Assembly: GCA_022510425.1 (NCBI GenBank)
Contig: JAFLTO010000018.1
Span: 1 to 43,656, forward strand
DNA: 43,656 nt
Origin: Muribaculaceae bacterium
GTDB taxonomy: Bacteria; Bacteroidota; Bacteroidia; Bacteroidales; Muribaculaceae
Direction of reading: 5' to 3'
The translations under genes and the position numbers were made by a program. Positions 294 to 43,656 of the stretch are shown one piece after another (position 1 is the stretch's first letter; every line of letters starts with the position of its first letter). The notes under the pieces are model-generated. The model saw only the letters and a program-made list of their open reading frames with translations, had not been told where the DNA came from and did no database searches.

Positions 294-339
294 TGTGCAA
301 AACAAAATATAATTAGGAATTTGTAAATAAATAACAAAA

Positions 340-819: not shown

Positions 820-828
820 TAGAAGAAG

Positions 829-1215: not shown

Positions 1216-1249
1216 TGCTGCTTAATAAAGAAAGAATCTGTTTAGTATC

Positions 1250-1339
1250 TAAACTTGTGGGATGAACCTTGGTTCCTACCCACAGGTTGGATTTCAACAA
1301 AAATTTAAAAAGAATGTAAACACCGGGTCTTTTTGACCC
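1250..1339 (+). promoter_or_regulatory. Candidate S2 (rpsB) leader structure
   Basis: Two hairpins fill the gap between rpsI and rpsB. The first has an outer 10-base-pair stem (AACTTGTGGG 1252-1261 with CCCACAGGTT 1279-1288, one G-U) enclosing a smaller stem GAACC/GGTTC (1264-1268/1271-1275). The second is GGGTC (1325-1329) with GACCC (1335-1339) around five T, about 20 bases before the ATG. Such structures before rpsB are autoregulatory targets of S2 in other bacteria; that function here is inference. The second hairpin, followed by no long T-run, is unlikely to be a full terminator. Confidence 0.5.
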
Positions 1340-1358
1340 ACAAAAATCAACACACAAA

Positions 1359-2201: not shown

Positions 2202-2227
2202 TAATTATTAAATTTTTTCGTAAAACT

Positions 2228-3220: not shown

Positions 3221-3244
3221 TAGTTAATCAATAGTTAAATATTT

Positions 3245-3279
3245 AGAAGCGACAGAAATTTTTTCTGTCGCTTCTTTTA
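3245..3279 (+). terminator. Terminator of the rplM-tsf operon
   Basis: A perfect 14-base-pair stem (3245-3258 with 3262-3275) with a TTT loop is followed by TTTTAT. The remaining gap to 3497 is AT-rich and shows no clear gene or consensus promoter. Confidence 0.9.
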
Positions 3280-3497
3280 TACAATAATTTCTTATTTTCA
3301 GCATCTTAGCTGTATAAATAACTGACATTCATATCAATTTATATTAATAAAATATTTAAACACAGAAAGGTTAAAATATATATTTAGAAATTATTAAATG
3401 AACCATTGAAGATTAATGTTGTTTTAATTTTAAAGAGGCAGTAAAATGCTGATTAAAAAATTAATTCTATTATTAACAAACAAAAAGTTATTAAAAA

Positions 3498-4661: not shown

Positions 4662-4687
4662 TTGATTTATTAAAAAACAAATTATGC

Positions 4688-4719
4688 GTGTGCCTCTTCA
4701 AAAGAGGCACACTCTTTTT
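4688..4719 (+). terminator. Terminator after first PSD-like gene
   Basis: A perfect 11-base-pair stem (4688-4698 with 4702-4712), 3-base loop and T-run. It implies that the two paralogues can be transcribed separately. Confidence 0.9.
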
Positions 4720-4877
4720 ATAAATAATGATCCAATATATTTCTAAAAGTATGAACCATTTCTTTTATAATCTTGTTATAATTATGGATAAAGGAAAAAC
4801 ATATTGATTTCCTAAAGCCTATTATAAAAGAAAACCCAAAATATTTTTATTATTAATCAATTTAAAATTATTAAAAA

Positions 4878-6041: not shown

Positions 6042-6090
6042 TAAAAATTTTCGTTGTAAATAAAATTTATATTGATAAATGATTGATTGA

Positions 6091-6130
6091 AAGGTATCTT
6101 TAAGGAGCAAGATCCTTGAAGATACCTTTT
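6091..6130 (+). terminator. Terminator after second PSD-like gene
   Basis: AAGGTATCTT (6091-6100) pairs with AAGATACCTT (6119-6128), the stem continuing inward through TAAGGA/TCCTTG, with T's after the stem. Confidence 0.88.
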
Positions 6131-6132
6131 TA

Positions 6133-6163
6133 TTTTCTTCAAAACATTTTATCGTTAAATTTG
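6133..6163 (+). promoter_or_regulatory. Probable promoter for antiporter gene
   Basis: TAAATTTG at 6156-6163 matches the TAnnTTTG -7 element. A weaker TTTT at 6133-6136 sits 19 bases upstream in place of TTTG. It lies between the preceding terminator and the antiporter start. Confidence 0.5.
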
Positions 6164-6219
6164 TATTAATTATAGAGTGTTAGCAAGATTATCAGTCAAT
6201 AATAATAAAATCAATTTAT

Positions 6220-25555: not shown

Positions 25556-26359
25556 ATGGATAGATCGATAGCATTGATGGGAGCGATTTGTGGAGATATA
25601 ATGGGATCTCCTTATGAATATTGGAAAGCGAGGACTAAGAAATATGATTTCAACCCTTTCCCTCCAAGAGCAAGATTTACAGATGATACTGTGATGTCTG
25701 TAGCAGTTGCCGACTGGATTATGACCGGAGGTGATTTATCAAAAGTAATGCAGAAATGGGGACATAAATACCCCAATGCCGGTTTTGGAGGAATGTTCAG
25801 AATGTGGCTTTCAGCTCCTGATCCACAACCCTACAATAGTTTTGGGAATGGATCTGCCATGAGGGTGAGTCCTGTCGGTTGTGCTTTCGACACCTTGGAA
25901 GAAACTTTACAGAAAGCCAAAGAAAGTGCAGAAGTTACTCATAATCATCCTGAAGGTATTAAAGGTGCACAAGCTACCGCTGCTGCAATTTTTTTAGCCA
26001 GAACCGGTAAGTCTAAAGAGGAAATAAAGGATTATATTTCAGGAACCTTTGGTTATGACTTAAATAGAACTTGCGATCAAATCAGACCGGGATATGAATT
26101 TGATGTCACTTGTCAGGGAAGTGTCCCGGAATCCATTATCTGTTTCCTTGAGAGTAAGGATTATGAGGATTGTGTAAGATTGGCGGTCTCAATGGGAGGT
26201 GACTCAGACACTATGGGAGCAATAGCCGGAAGTATTGCAGCTGCTTATTATGGTGAAATTCCGGATGAAATCTTTAATAAATGTTGGGAAAAACTTCCGG
26301 AAGATATTCGAAAAATTATAGAAGATTTTAGAAAATTCACCCAGCTACAAACAACCTGA
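25556..26359 (+). CDS. ADP-ribosylglycohydrolase (DraG/ARH family)
   Basis: A 267-residue all-helical hydrolase that removes ADP-ribose from proteins or small molecules using two Mg ions. Metal-binding motifs are visible: GAICGDIMGSPYEY at 9-22, FTDDT near residue 41, GNGSAMRVSPVG, and the C-terminal GGDSDTMGAIAGSIAAAYYG. The length fits the bacterial family. The NUDIX gene follows after one base, so released ADP-ribose could be split at once to AMP and ribose 5-phosphate. The physiological substrate is unknown; no ADP-ribosyltransferase is visible nearby. Confidence 0.92.
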   Translation: MDRSIALMGAICGDIMGSPYEYWKARTKKYDFNPFPPRARFTDDTVMSVAVADWIMTGGDLSKVMQKWGHKYPNAGFGGMFRMWLSAPDPQPYNSFGNGSAMRVSPVGCAFDTLEETLQKAKESAEVTHNHPEGIKGAQATAAAIFLARTGKSKEEIKDYISGTFGYDLNRTCDQIRPGYEFDVTCQGSVPESIICFLESKDYEDCVRLAVSMGGDSDTMGAIAGSIAAAYYGEIPDEIFNKCWEKLPEDIRKIIEDFRKFTQLQTT

Positions 26360-26360
26360 T

Positions 26361-26789
26361 ATGTATTGCTACAAATACCCACATCCGGCTGTCACGGCTG
26401 ATTGTATTGTCTTCAATAAAGAAGACAACAGGATATATGTTCTTCTTATAAAAAGGAAGAATGAACCCTTTAAAGATTGTTGGGCTTTTCCCGGTGGTTT
26501 TATAAATATTGATGAGTCGGCAGAGGATGCCGCTATAAGGGAACTCAAAGAAGAGACAGGATTGGAAATTTCCACAGTTGAACAGCTTAAAGCTTATTCC
26601 ACTCCGAACAGAGATCCAAGAGAAAGAGTCATAACAATCGCTTTTATTGCAGAAAGCACAATAAAGGACGTAAAAGGAGGTGATGATGCCAAAGAAGCCC
26701 GATGGTTTGATATTTCAACTCTTCCGCCTCTAGCCTTTGACCATGAGCAAATATTGAAAGATGCTTTGGAAAAAGTAAAAAAGAATTAA
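26361..26789 (+). CDS. NUDIX hydrolase, ADP-ribose pyrophosphatase-like
   Basis: A 142-residue single-domain NUDIX enzyme. The Nudix box is complete: GGFINIDESAEDAAIRELKEETGLE (about residues 45-69, with REXXEE as RELKEET). The N-terminus YKYPHPAVTADCIVF and the AYSTPNRDPRERVIT segment resemble ADP-ribose hydrolases and the NUDIX half of NrtR regulators; the winged-helix domain of NrtR is absent. It starts one base after the glycohydrolase stop, and convergence with the HigA-like gene follows. Confidence 0.9.
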   Translation: MYCYKYPHPAVTADCIVFNKEDNRIYVLLIKRKNEPFKDCWAFPGGFINIDESAEDAAIRELKEETGLEISTVEQLKAYSTPNRDPRERVITIAFIAESTIKDVKGGDDAKEARWFDISTLPPLAFDHEQILKDALEKVKKN

Positions 26790-29077: not shown

Positions 29078-29401
29078 TTATTTCATTACAGATACAAATG
29101 TTGGAACTAATTGTATCCCCAACACAGCTGCAATACGGAAGAAACTGGAAAGCTGCAAATCAGTTTTACCTTTTTCAACACGTGCTATATAGGTCTGCTC
29201 TCTACCAATCTTTTCAGCAACCTCACGCTGTGTTAATTTTAATTCCTGTCTACGGTCACGTATTAAATTGCCGTAATACCATGCTAAAGCCTTCGCATCA
29301 AATTCTGCTCGAGATTCGGTTCCAAACTTTCCATATTTCTCGTCAAGCATATCATTAGCTGTAGGAAGCTTGCTGACTTTTTCCATATCTAATTTTCTCA
29401 T
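29078..29401 (-). CDS. XRE-family antitoxin (HigA-like)
   Basis: A 107-residue protein with a C-terminal helix-turn-helix: IRDRRQELKLTQREVAEKIGREQTYIARVEKGKTDLQLSSFFRIAAVLGI. It starts at an ATGA overlap with the stop of the toxin gene, the toxin-first order typical of HigBA. It would bind the toxin and repress the shared promoter. Confidence 0.85.
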   Translation of the reverse strand: MRKLDMEKVSKLPTANDMLDEKYGKFGTESRAEFDAKALAWYYGNLIRDRRQELKLTQREVAEKIGREQTYIARVEKGKTDLQLSSFFRIAAVLGIQLVPTFVSVMK

Positions 29402-29763
29402 AATTCCAATCTGATTAAGATATTTTCTGCTAATTCTATTTGTTTTCGATAGTCTTTATTGCTTTTCTTTAGGAATGCGTTAAGAAGAATTATATTTTTA
29501 GCTTCAATAAAATTTTCATGGTCAATTGCAAAAAGCACCGTTCTGTATTCATTAGTCCCTACAGAGACTCTCATTTCATATAAATCTGTGTTTTCAAGAT
29601 GTTTGATAAATTTAGTGGGCACATTATAAATTGTTGTCATAACATTTATGACATAATCAAATTTATCCTTTATCTTATCAGACAGATTCGTATAAAAAAA
29701 CTCGTATTCAGTGGTTTTGAATACGGTCCGAATATATTCTTCTTTCGGCAATTCCTGTTCCAT
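29398..29763 (-). CDS. RelE/HigB-type toxin (Gp49-like)
   Basis: A 121-residue protein with the Gp49/HigB pattern: FFYTNLSDKIKDKFDYVINVM, KHLENTDLYEMRVSVGTNEYRTVLFAID and ILLNAFLKKSNKDYRKQIELAENI. The segment LYEMRV...YRTVLF followed by LLNAFLKKS is characteristic of these mRNA interferases, which cut mRNA at the ribosome. It is translated first and overlaps the antitoxin gene by four bases. A perfect palindrome lies about 10 bases upstream of its start. Confidence 0.85.
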   Translation of the reverse strand: MEQELPKEEYIRTVFKTTEYEFFYTNLSDKIKDKFDYVINVMTTIYNVPTKFIKHLENTDLYEMRVSVGTNEYRTVLFAIDHENFIEAKNIILLNAFLKKSNKDYRKQIELAENILIRLEL

Positions 29764-31001: not shown

Positions 31002-32777
31002 TTAACAGATGGGCACCCACCGATCAGGCAGGAGGTCCCGTTTACCGATATCGTCGGGTGGTGACTTGAGTTTGCGGAAGAGGTGGCACAGATAGGCGAA
31101 GGGATCTTTCCCATTGAGTCGGCAACTCTCGACCAGGGAGTGCATGAAGGCTGCGTTCTCTGCGGCCCCCTCACTTCCGATGTTCTGACAGTTCTTCAAA
31201 TCGAGCTTTATGGGCTTCATCCTTTGCTCGCAGAGATTGTTGGATATCTCGGCGTTGCCGTCAAAGAGGAAGTTACGCAAGGAGTTCCATTGTGTCAGGA
31301 TATAGTTGACGGCTTTCTTCACGAGGTCTTTTCCCATAAGCAATGTGTTCCTGCTTATTGTCGTTGCCAAGGCATGGATACGTGTCAGCACATGGTTGCT
31401 GAGTTTCTGACGACTCTGCTCCTTTTCTGTGGCCTCCATGCCCTTGAACCGGCGTTCGTAGTCAAAGAGGGCGTCTATCTCATCCAGAAGCTTGTATCCG
31501 ATTTCTGACTCCACTCCGATCATTTCTATGGCTTTGCGCCGCGCATGGCTCCAGCATCCGCAGTGAAGGATGTCGGGATGTTTCTCATCGTCATCGAAGA
31601 CCGTATAGGCGTTGTAACCGTCGGTCGATATTGTACCCTTGAACTTCTGAAGGAACTTCATCACCACCTCGCGGGCACGGCTCCCTCCCTCATAGACATA
31701 AGAGACAAGGTTGCCGCATTTGTTGTGGAAGGCCCACAGATACTTTTTCAGATACCCCACAACACCGGTCTTTTCGTTCTCGGTGCCTACAAGCACACAG
31801 GTCTCGTCGATCATTAGATACCGACAGTCGGCCACGGCTTGCCGCAGCGTTGCCTCGAGCATGGCCCGCAGTTCCGTTTCGGCCAACTGGTAGTAATGGT
31901 TGAAGGTGGTCTTGGGTAACCGGGCCCCCATCTCCCGCAGCTTCATTTTTATGCGTTTCTTCGGCGTGTGATACCCATATTTCTCAACAAGCAGGAAGGA
32001 AAGCATCTCTGCCGAAAAGGGACACCCTTTCACAGGGTTGTTTCTCTCTTCTTCGGGCAGTGTCTTGCAACAGTCTCCGTCGGCATTTATGTAACAGGCC
32101 GTCTGCCATACATGCCTGACTATGCGTCCGGGTATGAACTCATACTGGATCCATTCGTAGATCTCTGTCTCTCCGTCACGGGTCTTGAACCGGGCTCCTT
32201 CGGGAAGCCTGAAGTAGTCGCCCAGCTCATGGATCACCGTTTCGTCGCAACCGTATTTCTCTATCGAGGGCCTGCGGCCCTGGGATTTCTTCTTTTGTTT
32301 TGTACCCGAAGTATCCGCGGATGAAGTCCCGGCTGCAGCGCCTCCCTGTGCCGGAGGGTTTGTGCCGTCGAAGTCATCCTTGTCTTTGCCTCGACGATCT
32401 ACGCGGCGGTTATTAAGAAGATCCCTCTGTTCGGTGGTCGGGGCAAACCGCTTGCTTTGGCTTAGCTTGCCTGTGGATATGGCGTTGGCCAGCTGCTCAG
32501 ATAATGTGGCATTGATTTTTATCTGCTGCTCCATTGTCAGGCGCATCGTCTCTAGGCTTTTTTGCAGCGAGGCGTTCTGGGAGATCAGCGCCTGCTGGCT
32601 TTGAAGCAGGGTGAGGTTCTGCTCGCGCATGGCCGCCAGCTCGGCCTTGTAGGACTCTTCCATCGACCGCTGTTGTGCGAGCAATGCATCGAACTTGGCC
32701 TGCAGAGCAGCCTTCTCCTCCTGCATCCTCGACATGTTCTCAAGCAGCAGCTCGTATGAAAGATCCTTCCTTTTCAT
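31002..32777 (-). CDS. tnpC: IS66 transposase TnpC
   Basis: A 591-residue DDE transposase. The N-terminal coiled coil (residues 1-95, MQEEKAALQAKFDALLAQQ) leads to a Lys-rich linker, a zinc-finger-like segment with CxxD-type residues before GCPFSAEM, and the catalytic core with Asp in YLMIDETCVL, Asp in ISTDGYNAYTVF and the Glu in NNLCEQRMKPIKLDLKNC. The C-terminal IS66 tail (NAAFMHSLVESCRLNGKDPFAYLCHLF) is present. No frameshift. Confidence 0.95.
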   Translation of the reverse strand: MKRKDLSYELLLENMSRMQEEKAALQAKFDALLAQQRSMEESYKAELAAMREQNLTLLQSQQALISQNASLQKSLETMRLTMEQQIKINATLSEQLANAISTGKLSQSKRFAPTTEQRDLLNNRRVDRRGKDKDDFDGTNPPAQGGAAAGTSSADTSGTKQKKKSQGRRPSIEKYGCDETVIHELGDYFRLPEGARFKTRDGETEIYEWIQYEFIPGRIVRHVWQTACYINADGDCCKTLPEEERNNPVKGCPFSAEMLSFLLVEKYGYHTPKKRIKMKLREMGARLPKTTFNHYYQLAETELRAMLEATLRQAVADCRYLMIDETCVLVGTENEKTGVVGYLKKYLWAFHNKCGNLVSYVYEGGSRAREVVMKFLQKFKGTISTDGYNAYTVFDDDEKHPDILHCGCWSHARRKAIEMIGVESEIGYKLLDEIDALFDYERRFKGMEATEKEQSRQKLSNHVLTRIHALATTISRNTLLMGKDLVKKAVNYILTQWNSLRNFLFDGNAEISNNLCEQRMKPIKLDLKNCQNIGSEGAAENAAFMHSLVESCRLNGKDPFAYLCHLFRKLKSPPDDIGKRDLLPDRWVPIC

Positions 32778-32856
32778 ACCTCTAATTTAATGAAAATCTT
32801 TCATTTATGCAAGTACAAATTGCATTTATTTTATTGATTCCCAATAAATTAAACCA

Positions 32857-33216
32857 CTATTTTGAAGGTTCCGGACTCACTTCTCCAAGCCTTATCTCGG
32901 TGCGTGTGAGTCCTTCTGTGAGGCAAACAAGATCCGCATACCCGATTTGATACCTCCCCGCTTTCGACTCGTACACGGGCTTGCGGAAGCGTCCCTGCGA
33001 AGGCCGCTTTTCATACATAACGTAGAAACCTCTCTCAAAATGGATCAGCCTGACGATGGTCCGGGACTTGTTCATGAAGATGAAGACGTTGCGTTCGTCA
33101 TAGGGATTACTCCGCATCTCTGTCTTCACTATGTCGAACAGTCTCAGACAGCCGCCTCTGAGGTTCACCTTGCCTGTGTAAAGATAGAACCTCAGTTCCT
33201 CGCTCAGCCTAAACAT
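32857..33216 (-). CDS. tnpB: IS66 accessory protein TnpB
   Basis: A 119-residue IS66 Orf2 protein: VNLRGGCLRLFDIVKTEM, DERNVFIFMNKSRTIVRLIHFERGFYVMYEKR. It is required with TnpA for IS66 transposition in studied elements. Its start overlaps the tnpA end by 13 bases. Confidence 0.92.
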   Translation of the reverse strand: MFRLSEELRFYLYTGKVNLRGGCLRLFDIVKTEMRSNPYDERNVFIFMNKSRTIVRLIHFERGFYVMYEKRPSQGRFRKPVYESKAGRYQIGYADLVCLTEGLTRTEIRLGEVSPEPSK

Positions 33217-33569
33217 AGCGCCGGTCTTATCTTGTTCAACATCTCCAGCAAGGTGTCAAGACCGATCGATTCCCTCTCAAGCCTCAGTCCGTTGTCAAAA
33301 CTTATCCTGACAGAACGCACATTGACAGCCGTGGATAATGATGGCGGCCTGACCGCCACCATCTCCACCATGGCCGGCAAACTTCTGGAATCCGGCCCTG
33401 CCGATTGTCTGCGTGCCGAATATCCCATCCGGCTACGCCAGTTAATATAACTTCTATAGGGTATACCTTCCTCCTCACATATCTTCGTGAGGCTCATCTC
33501 CCCTGAAAAAGTCTGCACCAGTTCATGAAAACCGGCAAGATCATACTTGGTTCTTTGTGCCATAATCAT
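33204..33569 (-). CDS. tnpA: IS66 accessory protein TnpA
   Basis: A 121-residue IS66 Orf1 protein with an N-terminal helix-turn-helix-like region (LVQTFSGEMSLTKICEEEGIPYRSYINWRSRMGY) and a C-terminal VSFDNGLRLERES-type strand. A second ATG six bases inside the chosen start (MAQRTKYD) is equally plausible. It is the first gene after the right inverted repeat. Confidence 0.88.
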   Translation of the reverse strand: MIMAQRTKYDLAGFHELVQTFSGEMSLTKICEEEGIPYRSYINWRSRMGYSARRQSAGPDSRSLPAMVEMVAVRPPSLSTAVNVRSVRISFDNGLRLERESIGLDTLLEMLNKIRPALCLG

Positions 33570-33648
33570 AGTTTTTTGGATTTTGACACAAAGCTATATC
33601 ATTCCCTCAACTCCTCATGGCGGTGTTTGGGCCGTTTACGATATAATG

Positions 33649-33971
33649 GTAAAATTGCTGTATTGAAAGATGAACGAATAAAGTTGTGGAATCATATTCG
33701 CTCTGGTATAGATGTGGCCATTATTACCAGTCAAATAATAAATATCCAGAATACGTACCAAAAAGTTATAGATATGTAGTCTTTAGTGGTAAGAACAAAA
33801 GCTACTATACACCAGGTAACCTTCAAGTCGCAGAATCATGTATGGTGGAGAATGCTTTGTATAAGACATAATTGAAGAAGATAAGTCTAAAATATCTTAC
33901 AGAAAAAGTACAAACAGAACTCCGGTCAGCATTATTTCAAAGGTATAATTAGCTCTATGAATAAATTTTCT
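33649..33971. other. Gene remnant between IS66 and ATPase gene
   Basis: No intact gene. Two plus-strand frames that overlap look protein-like (KLWNHIRSGIDVAIITSQ, and further on YVPKSYRYVVFSGKNKSYY), as if one gene had been broken by a frameshift near 33720-33760. The part lost to the left does not continue across the IS66 element, so decay preceded the insertion. Confidence 0.45.
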
Positions 33972-33979
33972 TAACTTTG
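33972..33979 (+). promoter_or_regulatory. -7 promoter element for ATPase-TOPRIM pair
   Basis: TAACTTTG matches TAnnTTTG 24 bases before the chosen ATG at 34004. No clear TTTG was seen at the expected upstream distance. Confidence 0.4.
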
Positions 33980-34003
33980 TAACCAAATAAGCATTTGTCA
34001 GAT

Positions 34004-35122
34004 ATGAAAATTATTAGATTGTCTTTCAAAGATCGAAGAAGTGGATGGAATATAAAAAACCTATATTTCAACAACTTGACATTGCTTGTGGGGGCATCTG
34101 GCGTTGGAAAAACACAGATACTTAATGCAATAAATAGTCTTGTTAGGATAGGAAAAGGCAAATCAGCTGGTGTTGTAGAGTGGACACTTGATTTTGAGGT
34201 AAATAATCTTAAATATAGATGGGAGGGTGCTTTTGTTTCAGATGAAAATGACCAGAACAAGACTTTTGATATACAAGAGCCAGCTCTGCCCATTGAATAT
34301 GAAAGGTTATATAGAATTAATGAGAGGGAGGAACTTCTTATTGATAGAATCATACAAAAGTTAGTATTTAAGGGGGAACAAACTGTTAAATTAGAAGCGA
34401 CTAAAAGCGCAATTGCTCTTCTAAAAGAAGAGCCAGATATAATGCCTGTATATTCTGGTTTAACACATGTATATTCTCTGCGTCCGTCGGTGGAGAGTGG
34501 TATCCGAATACCTTTTACGAAGATAGAAGGTGTTGCACCAATCAAAAATTTAGATGAATTAAGAAAATATACCAATTTTACACCGATAGAAAAATTATTC
34601 TTGCTTTATAAGAACCAAATAAGTGAATATAGAGATATTGTAGATCGTTTTACAGATATATTCTCATTTGTTGAAACTATTGATTTTACAATAGAGACTT
34701 TTATTGATAAGTTCCAATATCCTGTCTTGAGAATTAAAGAACGTGGGCTCAATACTTGGATTCCACAAGATCGCATTTCATCCGGAATGTTACGAACGCT
34801 GGTTCATATTATTGTTATTTCATTGGCAGAGGATGGTGATGTAATTTTAATAGATGAATTTGAAAATGGTTTAGGTGTCAATTGTATCGAGGAGGTTGCT
34901 GATATGATAATTAACCCTGAGCAGAATTTACAATTTGTGCTAACGAGCCATCATCCTTATGTAATAAACAATATTGATTATAAATGGTGGAAAATCGTTA
35001 CTCGTAAAGGTAGTGATGTCTCTGTACATACCGCGGAGTCTTTGCGCATAGGAGATCATTCTAAGCATGATGCCTTTTTACAATTAGTGCAGTCTTCTGC
35101 ATATCAAACCGGGACATTATGA
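34004..35122 (+). CDS. ABC-type/OLD-like AAA ATPase, putative defence protein
   Basis: A 372-residue ATPase of the SMC/RecF/OLD-like AAA_15/21 class. Walker A GASGVGKT at 30-37, ABC signature-like RISSGMLRTL, Walker B DVILIDEFENGL and the H-loop SHHP are all visible. A TTG at 33995 in frame could start three residues earlier; the ATG at 34004 is preferred because conserved sequence begins MKIIRLSF. The stop overlaps the next gene as ATGA. ATPase plus small TOPRIM-like partner is the plan of PARIS (AriA/AriB) and RloA/RloB-type defence loci. Which of these it belongs to is not resolved by eye. Confidence 0.8.
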   Translation: MKIIRLSFKDRRSGWNIKNLYFNNLTLLVGASGVGKTQILNAINSLVRIGKGKSAGVVEWTLDFEVNNLKYRWEGAFVSDENDQNKTFDIQEPALPIEYERLYRINEREELLIDRIIQKLVFKGEQTVKLEATKSAIALLKEEPDIMPVYSGLTHVYSLRPSVESGIRIPFTKIEGVAPIKNLDELRKYTNFTPIEKLFLLYKNQISEYRDIVDRFTDIFSFVETIDFTIETFIDKFQYPVLRIKERGLNTWIPQDRISSGMLRTLVHIIVISLAEDGDVILIDEFENGLGVNCIEEVADMIINPEQNLQFVLTSHHPYVINNIDYKWWKIVTRKGSDVSVHTAESLRIGDHSKHDAFLQLVQSSAYQTGTL

Positions 35123-35802
35123 ATTTGTACATAATTGTTGAAGGGGATAAAACAGAACTACAAGTATACCCCGCGTGGATGAAATATTTGGCCCCTCAAT
35201 TGAATAGGATTGAAGATGCATGGGGTGTAAGCGATAACACTTACTATATTTTTTCTGGTGGAGGTATTCCTTCGATATACAACCATATTATTCATTCGAT
35301 TCAAGATATAAATACTATTAATTCAAAAGGTGGTGCTAAATATGACATTTTGATGGTTTGTATTGATACAGAAGAAGACGATAGACAAGCCATAGAGAAT
35401 CGTATCAGCAGCCATATAGCATTGAACAATCTTAAATTTAAAGATTTTGAAATTGTCGTATTTGAGCACAAAGTGTGTATGGAGACTTGGTTTTTAGGAA
35501 ATCAAAATATTTTCAAACGTAATCCACAAGATGTAACATATCGTGATTACATACAATTCTATAATGTAGTGGATTGTGATCCTGAATTAATGGGGACTCC
35601 TAATGATGAATGGACAAAAGCTCAGTTCCATTATAGGTATCTAAAGAAAATGTTTAGTGAACGGCACATGAAATATTCAAAGACGAATACAAAAGAAATA
35701 GAAAAACATACGTATTTGAATCAATTGATATTAAGATATAAGGAAACTAATGATATTGGTTCTTTTGGTCGATGGTATGACTTTATTAGATCACTTAAAT
35801 AA
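35119..35802 (+). CDS. TOPRIM/RloB-like partner protein
   Basis: A 227-residue protein starting MNLYIIVEGDKTELQVYP, whose VEGxxTE resembles the first TOPRIM/RloB acidic motif; the second acidic cluster is MVCIDTEEDD, followed by the KVCMETWFLGN segment typical of DUF4276/RloB-like proteins. It would be the metal-dependent effector (nuclease-like) controlled by the ATPase, with which it is translationally coupled by ATGA. The assignment to a precise family is tentative. Confidence 0.65.
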   Translation: MNLYIIVEGDKTELQVYPAWMKYLAPQLNRIEDAWGVSDNTYYIFSGGGIPSIYNHIIHSIQDINTINSKGGAKYDILMVCIDTEEDDRQAIENRISSHIALNNLKFKDFEIVVFEHKVCMETWFLGNQNIFKRNPQDVTYRDYIQFYNVVDCDPELMGTPNDEWTKAQFHYRYLKKMFSERHMKYSKTNTKEIEKHTYLNQLILRYKETNDIGSFGRWYDFIRSLK

Positions 35803-35814
35803 TCCATTTGTTTT

Positions 35815-36066
35815 TCAGATTTCAAGATATGAAATAGATCCTTCAAGTAGAGTTTTCAAGACATATTCGTTACCTTCTCCGTCCATTATTCTTACCGTCT
35901 CAGGGGAGGTCGGAATGGGAGGTGAAGTCTGAGAAGTGGAAGCGTTGCAGAAGCGGTAGATGTCTTCCTGGGTGTACCAGTATTTATCACCCTCACGGGA
36001 ATATCCGAGATAACCATTGTCACGGAGTTTCTTAAGGTATTTATCCTTGATGTTGAGGAGAGCCAT
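35815..36066 (-). CDS. Small DNA-binding-like fragment (HTH_17/MerR-like half), copy 1
   Basis: Eighty-three residues; the first part LKKLRDNGYLGYSREGDKYWYTQEDIYRF looks like the recognition helix and wing of an excisionase/MerR-like domain, while its upstream helices are missing. Compared with the copy at 43388-43537, this one lacks a base after the RF codons, so its C-terminal 45 residues are read in a different frame. It is thus probably a truncated and frameshifted remnant. Its DNA forms one of the two direct repeats around the primase-RT operon. Confidence 0.55.
   Translation of the reverse strand: MALLNIKDKYLKKLRDNGYLGYSREGDKYWYTQEDIYRFCNASTSQTSPPIPTSPETVRIMDGEGNEYVLKTLLEGSISYLEI
35903..36033 (+). 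repeat. Direct repeat flanking the primase-RT cassette, left copy
   Basis: About 130 bases roughly 88% identical, by eye, to 43397-43529 in the same orientation, with one single-base indel. The core identical run includes TTCCTGGGTGTACCAGTATT. Similarity stops abruptly on the cassette side at GAGTTTCTT. Confidence 0.85.
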
Positions 36067-36625
36067 TGTTAAATTCTATTTTTATAAAGACTCTTAAAAA
36101 TATTTCCCGACTAACTCAATTTCATCGTGAGTTTCTTATCTCATTTTTATACTCCATTCAAAATGATAAGTTTACCTGTAAACTTAATCCAGGGTTTGAA
36201 AAGTAAAAAGTATGAATTTTGTTTCTCAGATAAACATACTCTATCTGTGACGTTAATTACCAAATATTTTTAGTAACAAGATGCTTCATTTATAATGATA
36301 TACTAGGGACCTGTATGGAGGTCAAGTAAGGTACTTTATTGATTAGGATAACTTTACAGATACGGGATATACATAGGAAATCGAAGTTGAAATCAACAAA
36401 CTCAGAGATCTCCCTTATGCAGAAATCTATGATATCATTATCATTAATCCGTTAAAACTGCTCCTATATATGAATTTTCTTATCTGAAATCATCAAGTTA
36501 AACTTACTAAAATTAAAATAGTTAGTATTTATTGCTTTTAATATGTTTCTTAAGAAAGGAATAATTACTATTAATTTAGTAACTTTACTTTCCTTTTATG
36601 TTGATAAATCCTTATTTTAAACCTT
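36067..36625. other. Gene-free leader region before primase-RT operon
   Basis: 559 AT-rich bases with no supported gene. It holds a palindrome, TAAGTTTAC-CT-GTAAACTTA (36167-36186), a protein-like scrap interrupted by stops at 36350-36480 (EIEVEINKLRDLPYAEIYDI), and a weak -7 match TAACTTTA (36580-36587) about 40 bases before the primase ATG. A non-coding RNA partner for the reverse transcriptase could lie here, but I see no clear structure beyond the palindrome. Confidence 0.5.
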
Positions 36626-37672
36626 ATGTTTATACCTGACAACATTATAGATCTCCTTCGGCAAAAAGATTGTGAAGAACTTGCTTGTAGATTTGGAATT
36701 GAGGTAAAGAGACATAAGGCCTATTGTTTCTTGCATTCAGAATCTGTTCCCAGCCTTTCATTCCATCCATCAAAGAAAAATGTTTGGCACTGTTTTTCAT
36801 GTGGTAAGGGTGGTGATGCCATTAGTTTTATGATGGAATATGATAGGTGTGGATTCATTGAAGCATGTGAAAAGCTAAGTGCCATCTATGGTATTATCCT
36901 TCCGACCGGGAAACCATCCTATATACCTAAAAGAAGAGTATCCATCCGAACTTTTTCGAATAAGGATCATTCAGACTACAATAAAATGTTTGACACTGAA
37001 ATAGCTGAATGGTTACTTAATAATATTATTTTGACCCAAAATGCAAAAAGTTTTTTGTTTGAAAAGAGAAAATTAAATAAGGAAATTATATGCAAAATAG
37101 GCATAAAGTCGATTGATGACAGCCGCTCAATAAGCCAAAAGATATGGAATGAATTTGGAGAAAAGCGATGTAGGGCAAGCGGATTATTTGGGGAAAAAGG
37201 GTATCTCTCGTTTTGGACTCCCTGCATTATTTTCCCATATAGAGATAAAAACGATCAATTGTTAGGATTACAATCACGGTATATTGGTGATAATGAAAAA
37301 GCGCCTCGTTTTCAATTTTTATCTCTTCAAAAGACACATCTCTTCAATATGCCATTATTAAATAAATGTACAGTTGAAAAAGATTTGTATATCACAGAGG
37401 GCGTAACGGATTGTCTGGCCATGCTATCGAATGGGAAAGCCTCACTGGCTATTCCAAGTGCTACTATTATTCCTGTAGAAGACTTGCACCTATTGCGTGG
37501 CTATAAACTAAAAATGATGCCCGACAATGACGAAGCCGGATGGGATGGATTTATGAAACTACGGAGGGCCTTGTTTAAAATAGGGATCCCTATTTTTAAA
37601 GAAGATATCCCTGCTGAGTACAAGGATTATGGAGAATGGTATGCGTCTGAGGCTATTAATACTAAGAATTGA
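36626..37672 (+). CDS. DnaG-like primase (CHC2 zinc finger + TOPRIM)
   Basis: A 348-residue compact primase. Zinc finger with Cys34, His37, Cys56, Cys59 (YCFLHSES...WHCFSCGKGGDAI); a DnaG core segment (IIFPYRDKNDQLLGLQSRYIG, then KAPRFQFLSLQKTHLFNMPLLNK); and a TOPRIM active site with Glu258 in ITEGVTD and DNDEAG at 300-305. The helicase-binding C-terminal domain of cellular DnaG (approximately 580-650 residues) is absent, as in phage and mobile-element primases. The next gene starts three bases after its stop, so it is the first gene of the four-gene operon. It may make RNA primers or short RNAs for the reverse transcriptase; alternatively it is a replication gene of a former mobile element. 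Confidence 0.88.
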   Translation: MFIPDNIIDLLRQKDCEELACRFGIEVKRHKAYCFLHSESVPSLSFHPSKKNVWHCFSCGKGGDAISFMMEYDRCGFIEACEKLSAIYGIILPTGKPSYIPKRRVSIRTFSNKDHSDYNKMFDTEIAEWLLNNIILTQNAKSFLFEKRKLNKEIICKIGIKSIDDSRSISQKIWNEFGEKRCRASGLFGEKGYLSFWTPCIIFPYRDKNDQLLGLQSRYIGDNEKAPRFQFLSLQKTHLFNMPLLNKCTVEKDLYITEGVTDCLAMLSNGKASLAIPSATIIPVEDLHLLRGYKLKMMPDNDEAGWDGFMKLRRALFKIGIPIFKEDIPAEYKDYGEWYASEAINTKN

Positions 37673-37675
37673 AAT

Positions 37676-38518
37676 ATGAGGACAAATCCAATCGACATCT
37701 TTTCGAGTTACTCTAAATTTACAGGGGAACTTATTAACGAGTTTGACCCAAAGGCTAAGAGTGATGAACCTTTGAATTCTAATGAAGTTTTAAATAATTC
37801 AAAAGAACAAAGCTTATTTAATCAGGATGAGAAGTATTCTTTATTTTCATATATCTTTGACCTACACAATTTAGATATCATTGAATCAATTAGAAAAGGA
37901 AAATATCCCAGAGAAAAAATAGATGTAATGAATTTTTTATGGACAAATCCTCAATTGTTGTTTTATCGCTATATTCTCTTAAAAGATCAGGATCGGAAAT
38001 ATAATATCGGTTATTTTACAGAAATGTTTCGTAAAATGATTAAAACGTTAATAGAATTGAATATTTTTTTCTTTGATGCCTATATTTTATGTAAAGTAAT
38101 TGATACATTTTTTAATTGGGAACAAATTAATAAAAAAATAAAATCTAAAACTAAGCCTTTTAGAATAGGTTACAACAATATCCTTATGGTAGAGTATAAA
38201 GGTAATAAACCCCACTTAATAATAAATGAAAATGGATTAAGAGATTTTAATTCCTATAGTACCGATAAGATTAGTCTTGGGCTATACTCAGGAAAAGATT
38301 TATTGTACTGCCAAAAAGTCACTGTCCCTAATTTCTCACCAGATGAACGTGAAGCAATATTTAAGGGAGATATTGGAAAGGATGGTCAGTTTAAATGGAG
38401 TGAACTTCTTAAGACATCGGAACCTGAAAACCAGACTATTACTAAAAATTATAACGAGATAAGAGAGTGGCTAGAAATTGTCGGACTTAAAGATAAATCT
38501 ACTGAACAAAACAAATAA
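37676..38518 (+). CDS. Unrecognised protein in primase-RT operon
   Basis: A 280-residue protein I cannot assign. The N-terminal approximately 60 residues are polar and likely disordered; residues 60-150 are mostly helical and aromatic-rich (NFLWTNPQLLFYRYILLKDQDRKYNI, IELNIFFFDAYILCKVIDTFF); the rest looks beta-rich (GYNNILMVEYKGNKPHLIINENG, GLYSGKDLLYCQKVTVPNFS). There is no signal peptide and no known catalytic motif. It is squeezed between the primase (3-base gap) and the RT-HD gene (11-base gap), so it is almost certainly part of the same functional unit. Confidence 0.8.
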   Translation: MRTNPIDIFSSYSKFTGELINEFDPKAKSDEPLNSNEVLNNSKEQSLFNQDEKYSLFSYIFDLHNLDIIESIRKGKYPREKIDVMNFLWTNPQLLFYRYILLKDQDRKYNIGYFTEMFRKMIKTLIELNIFFFDAYILCKVIDTFFNWEQINKKIKSKTKPFRIGYNNILMVEYKGNKPHLIINENGLRDFNSYSTDKISLGLYSGKDLLYCQKVTVPNFSPDEREAIFKGDIGKDGQFKWSELLKTSEPENQTITKNYNEIREWLEIVGLKDKSTEQNK

Positions 38519-38529
38519 AAATCTCACCG

Positions 38530-41500
38530 ATGATGGATAATGGAATTAATAATGAGGAACTGAAGAAAGCTCCTTTATATGAATTCGTAATATCAGATCA
38601 TAATATTTATCGGGCAATCTATGCTCTGGAATCATATATTGAGGAGCTCTATCTTTTAAATACTGTAGCAAACTCAGATGATGAGAAAAAATCCGGAAAT
38701 ACTAATAGTTTGTTACATAATAAGAGCGATTTGGAGTTATATTACCTACTTCAGGACAAATATAACTGGGCTGTTATTGATGAGGTTATAAAAGTATGTA
38801 AAGATAGACTTAAAGATATAATTATCAAGCCGAATGAATATTTTGAAACTTCAGTTTTCTTCTCTTTAAAGAAATATGATGATGAAAAAGACAAGGTAAA
38901 ATTCAGGCCATTACATACGGCTACCCTTATAGACCAGATCTGTATGGTGGCCATGCTCCAAATCTTAATGTTTGAAGATAGCGATGGAATGGAGGATAGT
39001 GCAGTACCTCGGCGTTTTCCTTCCGATCTGTTAAAATCGATTCCGGATAATTTCTATGGTAACCGTGGTTCACTAAAATTGGACCGCATATATGAAAGAT
39101 GGGCGCCTAATTATCAGGCATATAACCGTAAGATTGTAGAATCCTGCGACAAATATAGCAGGAGCCATAAATATGAATATGAAGTGTCGCTTGATATAAA
39201 AGAGTTCTTTCCTTCGGTTTCTCCTTTTTACTTATTTGTCAATATTTGCGATATTTTAAAGGAAAGATATCGCAGAAACAAAAAGGTAAGTACAAATTCG
39301 CGACAATCCACTGAGGAGGATATTTATAATCTGAATTTTAATATACTTAAAAGAATCACAGTCAAACTTTTGTTCCTTAAAATTAAGGATAGTGATACAA
39401 TTCTTGATTCTGAGCTGGAATATTACAATGTAGGGGATAATTATTTGGAGGAAATTAAAAAAAGTGATACATTTTTTGCCAAAGGAATAGCTCAGGGTCT
39501 TCCTCAGTCATATTTTTTTGGTAATCTTTGTATGACAGATGTCCGTAGGAATATTATGAGCGATGACTCGTTCAAGGGGAAGGATTATTTCTATGTAGAT
39601 GATTCTGTAATTTATATAAGGAGCTCTAACCCGAATAGCAAAGATCTAATTAAGAATTTTAATACTAATATTGCTGCTCTTAATAATAAATTAAAAGATC
39701 TCACCTCTCTTGAGAAGATGAAGGATCGCTGGGAATCTGTGGTTAAGAATGATAATAACAAGACTTTGACAGAAGACTTGAAAGAATTCTGTGAAAACGC
39801 TGTAGACTTTCATTTGTTACTTACAGATTCTTATAAAATTGAGTTTCATAAGAAAGGAAAAAGTAAGATTCAGACTATAGATGATGCTGATCGAGAAATA
39901 AAGTCTTTGGGGGGATTAGGACGTAATGCTTCAGGCACGAATTCGTTTCTTATGGATGGTGATGACCGACGTATCTCAAGGGATAAAATGAATGCCTTGA
40001 ATGAATACGCTTGGGAGGCAATAAATCAATTAGAATCTGAACAAGAGAAGGAAAAGAATAATGAGAACAATGAAGAGGATAAGAATGATGATACTGATAA
40101 ATATGCTCTTCAATTAAAGGTTTTTAAAAGGTTCCGTAAGATTTTCTTATCCCGCAATTTGTGGATGGATACTATGGATTCGGGAGGTGTGAAAAAAGCT
40201 CAAGAAGAATGGTTCCTAAAATTACTGAATCCTGATGAATTGTATGTTCGAAACGAGATTTCTTCCCCTTATAAATTGCCGGAAGGCGATAAAGAAGCTG
40301 ATTCTCAACAAATTAGTTCAATATTTAAAAAGTTTGAGAAAGAACAAAAAATTTCGTGGTTTCAACTTACTGATAAGGAGTCTTTTAGAGCAGAGGCTGT
40401 ACAGTTATTAAAATGCAGTTCTCTTACCCATGCAAAAGAACTTAAAGAAAAGATAACCCAATTTGAAGAAAATTTTTCCGGTGTAGGTGAAATTTCATAT
40501 TCCCATCTCTATTTTCATAAATATTTAGAGGGGGTGATAGAGGAACGGAATTTAACCGGGAATAGATATGAAAGTCTTCATAAAGGTATACAAAATAATT
40601 TTCCTGCAGCTGTAAATATAGACACAGCAAAGGCAATAGATATATTACGGAAGTATATTCCAAAAGAATTCCCATTTATATTTTCTTCTGACAATGAGTA
40701 TGAGGAAAAAACTGAGAAAAATACTGAAGGAAATACTGAGGAAAAAACTGAGGAAAATACTGAAGGAAATACTGAGGAAAATATTGACACAAGTACCTTA
40801 TCATATGAAGAACCAAATTACATTAACTTCGTGAAGAAAGTATCTGACGAATTCAAGAGAAGAATTCTGAATGCATATTTTTCTGTATTAATAGGGGTCA
40901 ATCCATCTGAGGAGGTGCCTTTTGTCAAGACAAAGGGTGGTAGCATTGATTATGCTGCTTTCCGAATTCTGATATGGCTCCGGAATCCTAATTTTGATTT
41001 TAATGATTTTTGGCACTTTCTCTCTAAAATGGAATCTCATGCGCTTCCGGAAAGAATGATTGTTGATAACGGTCTTCCAGAAGTAGTAAAAATATTTGTA
41101 AGTCAAGTAGTAAATCCGAAGAAAATAGACAATCTTATCGTCACTCATAGGATTGTGAAAGGTTTATGGCAGAATGGATCAAAGTTCTTGAACTCCTATA
41201 CACTGCATAATGAGGAACATGCTGTGAAGTTGATAAAGCTCTCAATGGATATTGTTCGTCGTATAGATTATTTCCAGTTAAAGCGACTTGATTATTACAT
41301 ACTCTTTCTTGCCTGCTATCTCCATGATATCAGCATGGTTATTCATCCTGATCTGCAGCGTTTCTGTCATATGGAAGAAGGGAATCTGGAAATAATGGGT
41401 AAATATCTTAGGGAAATGAAAAATGAAGTAAGTAAATGGGATAATTTAGTAGCTCAAAAAATCATTTCGGATGATTTGGTTAATTTCTGGAAATCCTTCG

Positions 41501-42357
41501 GGGGTAAAATGACTGAAATATTTCAGGGAATATATGAATTCTTTGAATCTGATATTAGGTCAAAACATCCTAAAGAGAGTGCTCTTTTTATAAAAAATAA
41601 ACGCCATGATCTTTTCAAATATTTGGAAGAAACGATAGTCGAAGCAGTGGCGAATGCCGGTGAAGATCATGGTAAGGATATTTATAATATTTATGATATC
41701 CGTTCTTACGCTAAAGAAGATGTTATCAGTTCGAAGTATATTTCTATTCTATTACGTATGGCAGACTTGATGGATGTCTCAAATGACCGGATAAACTACC
41801 ATCTACTTAATGAGAATGTAAGTCATTTATCTGCAGACTCAAAATTTCATTGGATTTCACACCTCATAACCGATGAAATTACTTTGATTCCTAATTACGA
41901 AATAGCTAGTCAGACCATCATAGACAACTCCGGAAAGGAGAACATTAGGTATTTCATTCGGGAGACGCTTCGATTCTATCTTATTCTTAACATGAAAAGT
42001 TTAGAACCATTGGAAAGACATGAAAATCACGGATGTGCAAATTGGTGTCCAGTAGAGTATAATCACGAATCAGTGCCGGATAGATATAAAGATTTCGAAG
42101 GGATTACTCTTAGTTTTAAAGATAAGTCATGTCAAGAAACTTCATGTCCCATGGTTTGCCGGTGGATGAATAATAAACATCACTGGTTATTCCCGGAGTT
42201 GGCAAGGCTTCAAAAATATCTGAACACTGTTAACTATGAACCATTCAAAACGGAGATTGAAGTCAATATTTTGTTTAAGGATTTTTCAGATATCAACCTC
42301 AAACCTTCGCTATTCGATGATGTAAGACGTTATTTAAAAAATGAGCACAATGAGTAG
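38530..42357 (+). CDS. Reverse transcriptase fused to HD phosphohydrolase-like domain
   Basis: A 1275-residue fusion. RT part (about 110-460): motif A SLDIKEFFPSV with Asp222, motif B QGLPQSYFFGNL at 322-333, motif C YVDD at 355-358, and the motif D/E-like IEFHKKGKSK. The region before it (PRRFPSDLLKSIPDNFYGNRGS) recalls abortive-infection-type RTs (AbiA/AbiK class). Residues 500-850 are helical and charged, with a 12-residue tandem repeat at 725-748. The C-terminal HD domain shows TLHNEEH (His893, His897), LHD (His932-Asp933), IRSKHPKES (His1013) and LLRMADLMDVSNDR (Asp1079). A Cys-rich end (C1169, C1173, C1201, C1206, C1210) may bind zinc. No intron maturase or retron features. Probably a phage-defence polymerase whose HD domain hydrolyses nucleotides or nucleic acid; this is inferred. 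Confidence 0.92.
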   Translation: MMDNGINNEELKKAPLYEFVISDHNIYRAIYALESYIEELYLLNTVANSDDEKKSGNTNSLLHNKSDLELYYLLQDKYNWAVIDEVIKVCKDRLKDIIIKPNEYFETSVFFSLKKYDDEKDKVKFRPLHTATLIDQICMVAMLQILMFEDSDGMEDSAVPRRFPSDLLKSIPDNFYGNRGSLKLDRIYERWAPNYQAYNRKIVESCDKYSRSHKYEYEVSLDIKEFFPSVSPFYLFVNICDILKERYRRNKKVSTNSRQSTEEDIYNLNFNILKRITVKLLFLKIKDSDTILDSELEYYNVGDNYLEEIKKSDTFFAKGIAQGLPQSYFFGNLCMTDVRRNIMSDDSFKGKDYFYVDDSVIYIRSSNPNSKDLIKNFNTNIAALNNKLKDLTSLEKMKDRWESVVKNDNNKTLTEDLKEFCENAVDFHLLLTDSYKIEFHKKGKSKIQTIDDADREIKSLGGLGRNASGTNSFLMDGDDRRISRDKMNALNEYAWEAINQLESEQEKEKNNENNEEDKNDDTDKYALQLKVFKRFRKIFLSRNLWMDTMDSGGVKKAQEEWFLKLLNPDELYVRNEISSPYKLPEGDKEADSQQISSIFKKFEKEQKISWFQLTDKESFRAEAVQLLKCSSLTHAKELKEKITQFEENFSGVGEISYSHLYFHKYLEGVIEERNLTGNRYESLHKGIQNNFPAAVNIDTAKAIDILRKYIPKEFPFIFSSDNEYEEKTEKNTEGNTEEKTEENTEGNTEENIDTSTLSYEEPNYINFVKKVSDEFKRRILNAYFSVLIGVNPSEEVPFVKTKGGSIDYAAFRILIWLRNPNFDFNDFWHFLSKMESHALPERMIVDNGLPEVVKIFVSQVVNPKKIDNLIVTHRIVKGLWQNGSKFLNSYTLHNEEHAVKLIKLSMDIVRRIDYFQLKRLDYYILFLACYLHDISMVIHPDLQRFCHMEEGNLEIMGKYLREMKNEVSKWDNLVAQKIISDDLVNFWKSFGGKMTEIFQGIYEFFESDIRSKHPKESALFIKNKRHDLFKYLEETIVEAVANAGEDHGKDIYNIYDIRSYAKEDVISSKYISILLRMADLMDVSNDRINYHLLNENVSHLSADSKFHWISHLITDEITLIPNYEIASQTIIDNSGKENIRYFIRETLRFYLILNMKSLEPLERHENHGCANWCPVEYNHESVPDRYKDFEGITLSFKDKSCQETSCPMVCRWMNNKHHWLFPELARLQKYLNTVNYEPFKTEIEVNILFKDFSDINLKPSLFDDVRRYLKNEHNE
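40702..40773 (+). repeat. 36-base tandem repeat within RT-HD gene
   Basis: Two 36-base units (40702-40737 and 40738-40773) differ at one position and encode EEKTEKNTEGNT and EEKTEENTEGNT; a partial third unit follows (EENIDTS). The unit length is a multiple of three, so copy-number change would keep the frame. It lies in the linker between the RT and HD parts. Confidence 0.9.
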
Positions 42358-43066
42358 TAAACATAACTTTATAATACATCGTTTCGAAGAATTTTACCGG
42401 ATAACTGAGGTTTTGGCCGAGGGATTTGTACCAAATTATCATGCTGAAGATCTCAGACTGTTAAAAGATAGTAAGGAAATTATGTTTATGGGTATACCTA
42501 TGGTTTCCTTCGGGGATATTGAAGATACTGACATTTCAGAATTTATGAAAAATGCAGATCCGGACTACGGCAAATATGCCATTCTGATGAAGAAGGAATG
42601 GGCGTTACGACAACGATGGATGAGCCCCGTATGGTATGTTACCGATGATATGTTGAAGCTGATAAATAGAACTTGTAAGGCCTTATTGGAGTATGGGATA
42701 GTGGGATACATTAAAAAATATACTTCTGAATGGAAAGGAAATCCATATAATAATTACACTGAACGAGAATGGAGATATACGGTACCAATTACAGAAGTTA
42801 AATGGATCTTTAGCAAAGAGGATTACGATACATGGCGTAAGTTTCCCCATCTCCACAAAAGGCCTGCCCCAAACGAAGAACTCAAAAAACATGCTTTGAA
42901 GTTCGATATTGAGGACATAGAGGGAATTATCGTTTCTAATAAAAAAGATCAGGAGGATATCCATAAATTCCTTAATACAACAGAATTTCTTTCGGGGACA
43001 AAAAGACATCTATCTCCGGCAGAAATAAATAGATTGTTAGATTTATTGATAGTAATTGAGAAATAA
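42341..43066 (+). CDS. AbiGi-like abortive infection protein
   Basis: A 241-residue protein with the pattern I know from the AbiGi family (PF10899): an N-terminal IIHRFEEFYRITEVLAEGFVPNYHAED, the core IPMVSFGDI at 52-60, YGKYAILMKKEW at 76-87 and SPVWYV at 95-100, then WRYTVP and the C-terminal helical part. AbiGi of Lactococcus is one of two proteins in the AbiG phage-resistance system and is annotated as its antitoxin. Its start overlaps the RT-HD stop by 17 bases (or 8 if the second ATG at 42350 is used), strongly implying coupled translation. Here it may guard against, or be an effector of, the RT-HD protein. Confidence 0.65.
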   Translation: MSTMSSKHNFIIHRFEEFYRITEVLAEGFVPNYHAEDLRLLKDSKEIMFMGIPMVSFGDIEDTDISEFMKNADPDYGKYAILMKKEWALRQRWMSPVWYVTDDMLKLINRTCKALLEYGIVGYIKKYTSEWKGNPYNNYTEREWRYTVPITEVKWIFSKEDYDTWRKFPHLHKRPAPNEELKKHALKFDIEDIEGIIVSNKKDQEDIHKFLNTTEFLSGTKRHLSPAEINRLLDLLIVIEK

Positions 43067-43071
43067 TTATT

Positions 43072-43099
43072 GTGTTTTTGAAATATTTCAAATAAACAC
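43072..43099 (+). terminator. Hairpin after the primase-RT-AbiGi operon
   Basis: GTGTTT (43072-43077) pairs with AAACAC (43094-43099) enclosing the perfect palindrome TTGAAATATTTCAA. No T-run follows, so terminator function is uncertain. The bases from 43100 to 43387 are AT-rich and hold no supportable gene. Confidence 0.5.
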
Positions 43100-43387
43100 T
43101 GAGAATCATGTTGTAATATACTATGATCCTTCCCTCTCCTTTATGATTAATATGTTTAATAGTCTTCTCCTTGAATATAAGTTCCTCCATTTTAGGATAA
43201 AATTAGAAGGGACTTTTGGTAATTGTATTATAATTAGTTAAAACTTATTCAAAAAATTGATATCTTTTGAAGTATTAAGAATAAAAAATTTGTCTAATTT
43301 AATCCCGTTAAATGGTAAGTTTACATTTATTGAGCAGATTACATATATATACAAAAAATTTAGATGATCGGCTTCTTTTATAATTTA

Positions 43388-43537
43388 TTACAGTGGTGGA
43401 AGGTCAGAATGGGAGGTGAAATCGGAGAAGTGGAAGCGTTGTAGGAAGCGGTCAACATCTTCCTGGGTGTACCAGTATTTATCACCCTCGCGTGAATAAC
43501 CGAGATAACCGTTGTCGCGGAGTTTCTTTGTAAGCAT
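43388..43537 (-). pseudogene. Small DNA-binding-like fragment, copy 2
   Basis: A 49-residue frame (MLTKKLRDNGYLGYSREGD... ending FTSHSDLPPL) matching the fragment at 35815-36066. This copy keeps what looks like the original C-terminal frame (RFLQRFHFSDFTSH), since the other copy differs by a one-base gap. Its N-terminal half, where a helix-turn-helix would start, is missing: a remnant. Confidence 0.55.
43397..43529 (+). repeat. Direct repeat flanking the primase-RT cassette, right copy
   Basis: Partner of 35903-36033, about 88% identical by eye, same orientation. The two copies bracket the 7.4 kb holding the four-gene operon. Confidence 0.85.
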
Positions 43538-43564
43538 TAACTGAAGTACACCTTGAGTACAGGC

Positions 43565-43602
43565 TATAGGGTTTGTAATTTTGCTGGATTACAAACTCTA
43601 TA
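43565..43602. repeat. Inverted repeat near right edge
   Basis: TATAGGGTTTGTAAT (43565-43579) and ATTACAAACTCTATA (43588-43602) form a 15-base-pair stem with one mismatch-type G-U pair and an 8-base loop, directly before a small coding start. Possibly an insertion-element end or regulatory hairpin. Confidence 0.7.
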
Positions 43603-43614
43603 ATTTTTTATGGC

Positions 43615-43656
43615 ATGACCAAAGAAGAATTTGAAGAACTCAAACGTGAGCTAAAA
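43615..43656 (+). CDS. Start of a gene cut by window edge
   Basis: Fourteen codons (MTKEEFEELKRELK) are visible. The opening resembles the beginning of small IS66-type TnpA proteins in Bacteroidota, which would fit the inverted repeat just upstream, but fourteen residues are too few for an assignment. Confidence 0.4.
   Translation, partial: MTKEEFEELKRELK

Follow-up and report, generated by a model that had tools for sequence, protein, structure and literature searches.

A UG24 reverse transcriptase–HD fusion with a DnaG-like primase partner in a Muribaculaceae contig: a conserved three-gene core and its possible role in defense

This article describes a four-gene operon of a Muribaculaceae bacterium, located on contig JAFLTO010000018.1, which is part of a 66-contig genome and was analyzed over its whole length of 43,656 bases (hereafter, the window). 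Three of the genes encode a DnaG-like primase, a protein that we call ORF2, and a reverse transcriptase (RT) of the UG24 group fused to an HD domain. Together, they form a conserved unit, found in each of the nine loci whose sequence continues upstream of the RT (the window, L001, L041, L042, L043, L046, L047, L032, and L033), even though one of the primases (L032) looks decayed. The fourth gene, belonging to the AbiGi family, is an optional add-on of this branch. We give an even chance to the reading that the locus is a class 3-type defense RT system, in which the primase would prime the DNA synthesis of the RT and this synthesis would switch the fused HD hydrolase.

A sequence-only reading of the same DNA had proposed a defense role and knew of no described system with this set of genes. 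The likely defense role is supported, as RT_UG24 and RTasDnaG-like are both models of PADLOC-DB 2023 that carry the label DRT. By the same token, the primase–RT pair is already catalogued, and for this pair the claim of novelty is too strong. No numbered DRT type was matched strongly when the window RT was scanned with PADLOC. New here are the recognition of ORF2 as part of a three-gene core, a UG6–nitrilase locus that has the same primase family, and an accessory protein predicted to be ADP-ribosyltransferase-like.

The conserved core and its proteins

Four intact open reading frames (ORFs) follow each other closely on the plus strand, with gaps of 3 and 11 bases and a final overlap of 17 bases; positions and spacing were as first described, and the ORF listing confirms them. 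This spacing suggests a single transcript with coupled translation. Comparison with L001, the nearest named relative (from a Muribaculaceae metagenome-assembled genome), yielded ratios of nonsynonymous to synonymous substitution (dN/dS) of 0.35, 0.44, 0.29, and 0.29 for primase, ORF2, RT-HD, and AbiGi, respectively, indicating purifying selection on all four. The idea that the four genes make up one conserved set nonetheless had to be abandoned: three constitute the core, whereas the AbiGi gene is present in only 2 of the 10 genomes searched (2 of the 8 with UG24). Within the core, the intergenic gaps range from -56 to +40 bases in the eight loci measured, with start codons as called.

The RT-HD protein (1275 amino acids; 38530..42357, plus strand) matches the PADLOC model RT_UG24 from end to end (model positions 3-1035 of 1036, 1079.7 bits, E = 0). 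Its RT core (39085..39771, plus strand), whose residues 186-414 match Drt1a at 1.1e-4, carries the YVDD motif at residues 355-358, and an HD-CE phosphohydrolase-type domain follows at 41194..41970 of the same strand (Pfam PF24391, 1.3e-24, residues 889-1147). Pfam RVT_1 is not listed for the window RT but is listed for relatives (P0042, 1.7e-8). The catalytic residues are intact: D222 and Y355-D358 (YVDD) in the RT, as well as H893, H897, H932, D933, H1047, and D1079 in the HD domain, are invariant in 20 of 20 aligned proteins (the window protein and 19 listed homologs).

A search with the RT-HD protein returned 522 homologs at E ≤ 0.001 among 7,996 scored candidates, 120 of which were listed and provided the lengths, identities, and sources given here. 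Among these listed matches, the long form (1249-1274 amino acids) is common to full-length relatives of 59-87% identity, and most other relatives measure about 1090-1160 amino acids at 34-38% identity. Source names include Akkermansia and Prevotella, and the family thus spans phyla. At least five listed homologs (714-781 amino acids) have no RT half, and the two of them that were scanned match RT_UG24 only from about position 408; some relatives probably encode RT and HD in two genes.

Class 3 of the UG/Abi RTs is defined, in a DRT1 study that cites Mestre 2022 for it, as multidomain RTs with a nitrilase or phosphohydrolase (PMC13275509). By domain layout, the RT-HD protein clearly falls within this class, whereas its placement by RT sequence is not clear. 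The one other PADLOC match of the window RT is Drt1a, at 18 bits. Among 20 UG24 proteins, Drt1a was matched by 14, a CRISPR-associated RT model by 13, UG17 by 10, a second CRISPR RT model by 7, UG6 by 3, and UG5-nitrilase by 1, and the RT alignment found a group II intron RT among the PDB sequences (0.0012).

The primase (348 amino acids; 36626..37672, plus strand) belongs to the RTasDnaG-like family of PADLOC (1e-113) and aligns with the DnaG structure 2au3 (1.1e-22). It comprises a CHC2 zinc-binding domain (36707..36904, plus strand; Pfam PF01807, 3.1e-16, residues 28-93) and a TOPRIM domain (37388..37633, plus strand; Pfam PF13155, Toprim_2, 3.1e-5, residues 255-336), stopping soon after the latter, and Pfam lists no helicase-binding family for it. 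The domains first assigned to the genes, including a reduced primase without helicase-binding domain, were borne out. Both the zinc ligands (C34, H37, C56, and C59) and the TOPRIM acids (E258, D300, and D302) are invariant in 10 of 10 aligned primases. On the NCBIfam dnaG equivalog model, the protein scores 106 bits against a cut-off of 283.6. It also matches positions 5-337 of the 2280 positions of the RT_UG29 model (6.9e-26); by implication, another defense RT carries a related primase as a fusion.

How closely primase and RT are associated becomes clear from the genomes of the family. The primase model passed 1e-40 in 12 of 397 genomes, eight of which hold strong copies (303-413 bits); the next matches reach 139-143 bits, and the 300-bit line was drawn after the gap between 303 and 143 bits had been seen. 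The four low-scoring matches are full-length dnaG genes (726-741 amino acids). Six of the eight strong primases lie directly before ORF2 and a UG24 RT (G000, G935, G1009, G905, G1127, and G1114) and one lies directly before a UG6 RT (G1165, locus L061), in line with the association of primase and RT that had been proposed. The last one sits at a contig edge (G1077, locus L060). On this 3.7-kb contig, an AbiP2 RT (1.5e-143) on the minus strand and the RTasDnaG-like primase on the plus strand occupy 236-3626, an arrangement that may be due to chance. UG24 was found in 7 of the 397 genomes, the seventh being G845, whose RT is truncated at the start of its contig and which was scored for that reason as RT without primase. 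Both genes occur in 6 genomes, UG24 alone in 1, the primase alone in 2, and neither in 388 (Fisher 3.7e-11, treating the 397 genomes of both scans as one draw and related species as independent).

At L061, the gene order (402-6208) is RTasDnaG-like primase, UG6 RT (4.2e-112), a separate nitrilase (RTasNitrilase, 5.5e-100), and a gene of 203 amino acids. Judged by these matches, the primase family travels with defense RTs of at least two groups (UG24 and UG6), in addition to the UG29 model. Its pairing with RTs has likely arisen repeatedly, presumably by independent recruitment. A separate primase scan returned 13 loci, two of which are the contigs of L032 and L033; in 5 of the other 11, which were inspected, no RT motif was seen in nearby ORFs of at least 100 amino acids.

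ORF2 (280 amino acids; 37676..38518, plus strand), the third component of the core, has no family above the cut-off in Pfam, PADLOC, or NCBIfam, and three distant versions have no PADLOC match either. The structure model is of too low quality for a classification and shows no matching fold. Homologs are recognizable in 29 cases, and a gene of 224-294 amino acids occupies the place of ORF2 in all nine loci. The near and far versions are likely, if tentatively so, of common origin. The locus defines a complete three-gene unit, one component of which matches no PADLOC model.

In a search of the phylum, 1 of 395 genomes was found at 1e-60, namely the window's own. In a set of 393 genomes, RT_UG24 was matched at 0.001 in 38, with full-length matches only in G000 and G111; the other 36 are partial and were left out of the counts. 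A search of genome contigs for further loci retrieved only L001, and scans of viral sequences with P0061 and P0042 gave no matches.

The AbiGi-family accessory gene

The last gene (241 amino acids; 42341..43066, plus strand) scores above the cut-off of the Pfam family AbiGi (PF10899, 56.1 against 22.4 bits, 6.2e-15) and far below that of NCBIfam AbiGI (28 against 300 bits). The ORF and its 17-base overlap with the RT gene stand as listed, but the start is better placed at the ATG three codons downstream (42350), which is the start in most homologs. This would leave an overlap of 8 bases, matching L001 (RT end at 11804, AbiGi start at 11797). Pfam, PADLOC, and NCBIfam list no AbiGii-type family for the other three operon genes, and the contig ends 590 bases downstream. 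The genomes searched include G935, whose contig ends before the 3' part of the RT gene, so that the neighbor of the RT is unseen there. At L047, a gene of 431 amino acids without Pfam or PADLOC match (5656-6951) begins 2 bases after the UG24 RT, in the place of AbiGi.

The predicted AbiGi fold resembles ADP-ribosyltransferases (DarT/Tpt1-like superfamily), with modest scores. In the alignment, none of the 22 rows departs from E141-x-E143, and H13 is nearly invariant; we take these residues to resemble the H and E-x-E motifs of this superfamily. Against PDB sequences, the alignment found no significant relative (the best being a sulfotransferase, 0.045), and none of the papers listed in a literature search for AbiGi with DarT mentions DarT. 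The model points to an ADP-ribosyltransferase-like protein rather than a brake on toxicity; should the predicted fold prove right, describing AbiGi as an "antitoxin" family would have to be reconsidered. About 16 kb from the AbiGi gene, a gene for an ADP-ribosylglycohydrolase precedes a NUDIX gene (25556-26789), with no link shown.

Proposed priming by the primase and its alternatives

In the reading that we put forward, primers would be made by the DnaG-like primase, probably where single-stranded DNA of the phage lies exposed, and elongated into DNA by the UG24 RT. This synthesis would then switch on the fused HD hydrolase, stopping the infected cell. The primase would serve the RT and not a replication fork, and ORF2 may be an adaptor or regulator between the two. 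The HD domain would hydrolyze nucleotides or nucleic acid, gated by DNA synthesis in the way that DRT1 synthesis gates its nitrilase, and the AbiGi-like gene would add a second, ADP-ribosyltransferase-type effector in this branch only. According to the DRT1 study, DRT1 needs both its RT and its nitrilase residues, and its DNA synthesis activates the nitrilase (PMC13275509).

The co-occurrence of UG24 and primase, far above chance, counts in favor of this reading. The flanks also fit a system without RNA template, as no space of noncoding-RNA size is shared among the loci by spacing, Rfam, or upstream alignment. Rfam has no match across 33500-43656. Upstream of the primase, 559 bases are free in the window and 30, 83, and 92 in three other loci, and only 2 bases are free downstream of the RT in L047. 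The upstream stretches align at length only between the window and L001 (77.9% over 122 bases). With flanks this short and no Rfam match, a shared RNA template outside the genes is unlikely, although one could lie inside a gene.

Several points weigh on the other side. The UG6 locus has no ORF2, which shows that primase and RT can form a pair in its absence. At L032, the primase (4575-5321) has no in-frame zinc-binding part and hence looks decayed, while ORF2 and RT-HD are open there. In some relatives, RT and HD seem to be no longer fused. Given that the CRISPR RT model matches 13 of 20 UG24 proteins and Drt1a 14 of 20, it is the domain layout, more than the RT sequence, that ties UG24 to class 3. 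Neither a phage test nor any other experimental work on UG24 was found in the open-licence literature. Finally, DRT1 is described as protein-primed (PMC13275509), and a class 3 RT thus need not use RNA primers.

This last point leads to the main rival, which we consider somewhat unlikely yet serious: a protein-primed class 3 system, where the RT starts DNA on a residue of its own and the primase only senses phage single-stranded DNA or makes a short triggering RNA. DRT1 and DRT5 are reported to make DNA without a template, the product being covalently protein-bound, and escape of phages from DRT1 has been mapped to a helicase for single-stranded DNA, which makes work on single-stranded DNA a plausible trigger; the DRT1 priming serine, on the other hand, is said there to lack conservation among the remaining class 3 DRTs (PMC13275509). 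The invariant TOPRIM acids also speak against a mere sensor, as they are required for synthesis and not for binding.

Priming by the primase could also be extended to a full relay, which as a whole we think unlikely. Here, the primase would make RNA primers on phage DNA, ORF2 would hand them over, the RT would produce a defense DNA that arms the HD domain, and a DarT-like AbiGi would mark nucleic acid as a second strike, the primase having been gained more than once (UG24, UG6, and UG29). If true, defense RTs would have, besides protein priming and the use of RNA templates, a further general option in a primase partner.

Quite unlikely is a DNA-held toxin resembling a retron or toxin–antitoxin system, in which a DNA product made continuously by RT and primase would keep the HD domain (and AbiGi, if present) dormant until phage interference releases it. 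It is suggested by DRT1, whose adducts hold the nitrilase dormant as well as activate it and which its authors liken to a minimal retron (PMC13275509), together with the overlap of the AbiGi-like gene with the RT gene. However, lactococcal AbiGi alone is reported to be non-toxic in Escherichia coli (PMC3985639). AbiGi is, moreover, absent from 6 of the 8 UG24 genomes and cannot be a general toxin.

Most improbable is a replication or maintenance module of an integrative mobile element rather than a defense system: CHC2-TOPRIM primases are common on mobile elements and integrase-type genes lie near L046 (by Pfam) and L033 (by eye), but the cassette has no helicase, initiator, or relaxase, a search of 72,556 plasmid and 50,697 phage records found no relative of the RT, several loci have unrelated chromosomal genes on both sides (L042 and L044 between what look like chromosomal genes, by eye), and the primase family also pairs with a UG6 RT and nitrilase.

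Surroundings and comparison with known systems

Ahead of the primase, a weak candidate for a -7 promoter element, TAACTTTAC, was noted by eye at 36580..36588 (plus strand); it departs from the Bacteroidetes consensus TAnnTTTG at a single base. The L001 primase has a comparable stretch ahead of it, and exact matches to the consensus occur in L046 and L041 (again by eye). Further upstream (33995-35802), an overlapping pair of genes encodes an AAA_21 ATPase (Pfam, 3.9e-21; PADLOC AriA, 2.2e-23, and AbiLi, 1.7e-22) and a partner of 227 amino acids with only a weak PADLOC match (PDC-M38B, 0.0012), the start of which (IVEGDKTE) we take to be TOPRIM-like; the two are possibly a second defense pair. 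An IS66-type transposase (2.1e-54) and two small genes (31002-33569) separate the operon end from the rest of the contig, where two minus-strand genes (29078-29763), one of the helix-turn-helix type and one Gp49-like, look like a toxin–antitoxin pair. The surroundings differ from locus to locus; in L043, the system has as neighbors a Schlafen-type gene and a helicase that matches Mokosh MkoA (3.7e-35).

Among catalogued systems, UG24 as represented in PADLOC shares with the window the RT-HD protein from end to end and the family of its associated primase. It differs in having no model that matches ORF2, and AbiGi is an add-on of the window's branch. The window RT is also longer than that of most UG24 relatives among the matches listed (1275 versus about 1120 amino acids).

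DRT1 (UG1), likewise of class 3, resembles the window in placing an RT and then a hydrolase on one chain, in having no RNA partner found, and in its weak RT match. It differs by its nitrilase in place of HD, by consisting of a single gene (or of two with drt1b in some cases), and by the lack of any mention of a primase in its description (PMC13275509). The AbiG system of Lactococcus (AbiGi/AbiGii) shares the Pfam AbiGi family of the last protein, but the window operon has no AbiGii-type gene and its protein scores low on NCBIfam AbiGI, as given above.

Priming activity is joined to defense RTs in other ways as well. DRT7 (UG10) contains a primase–polymerase domain, presumably of the AEP type. 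As in the window, a priming activity is thereby coupled to a defense RT, but in a single fused chain with a primase–polymerase that is not of the DnaG type and, in the part of the source available, with no HD domain reported (PMC13213688). RT_UG29, known here from its model alone, is matched by the window primase over its first ~340 of 2280 positions and differs in having the primase fused to the RT. The UG6 locus L061 has the same primase family directly before its RT but another RT group, a separate nitrilase, no ORF2, and no HD-CE listed. With one primase family beside both an HD-type and a nitrilase-associated RT, results on priming in any of these systems would speak for several groups.

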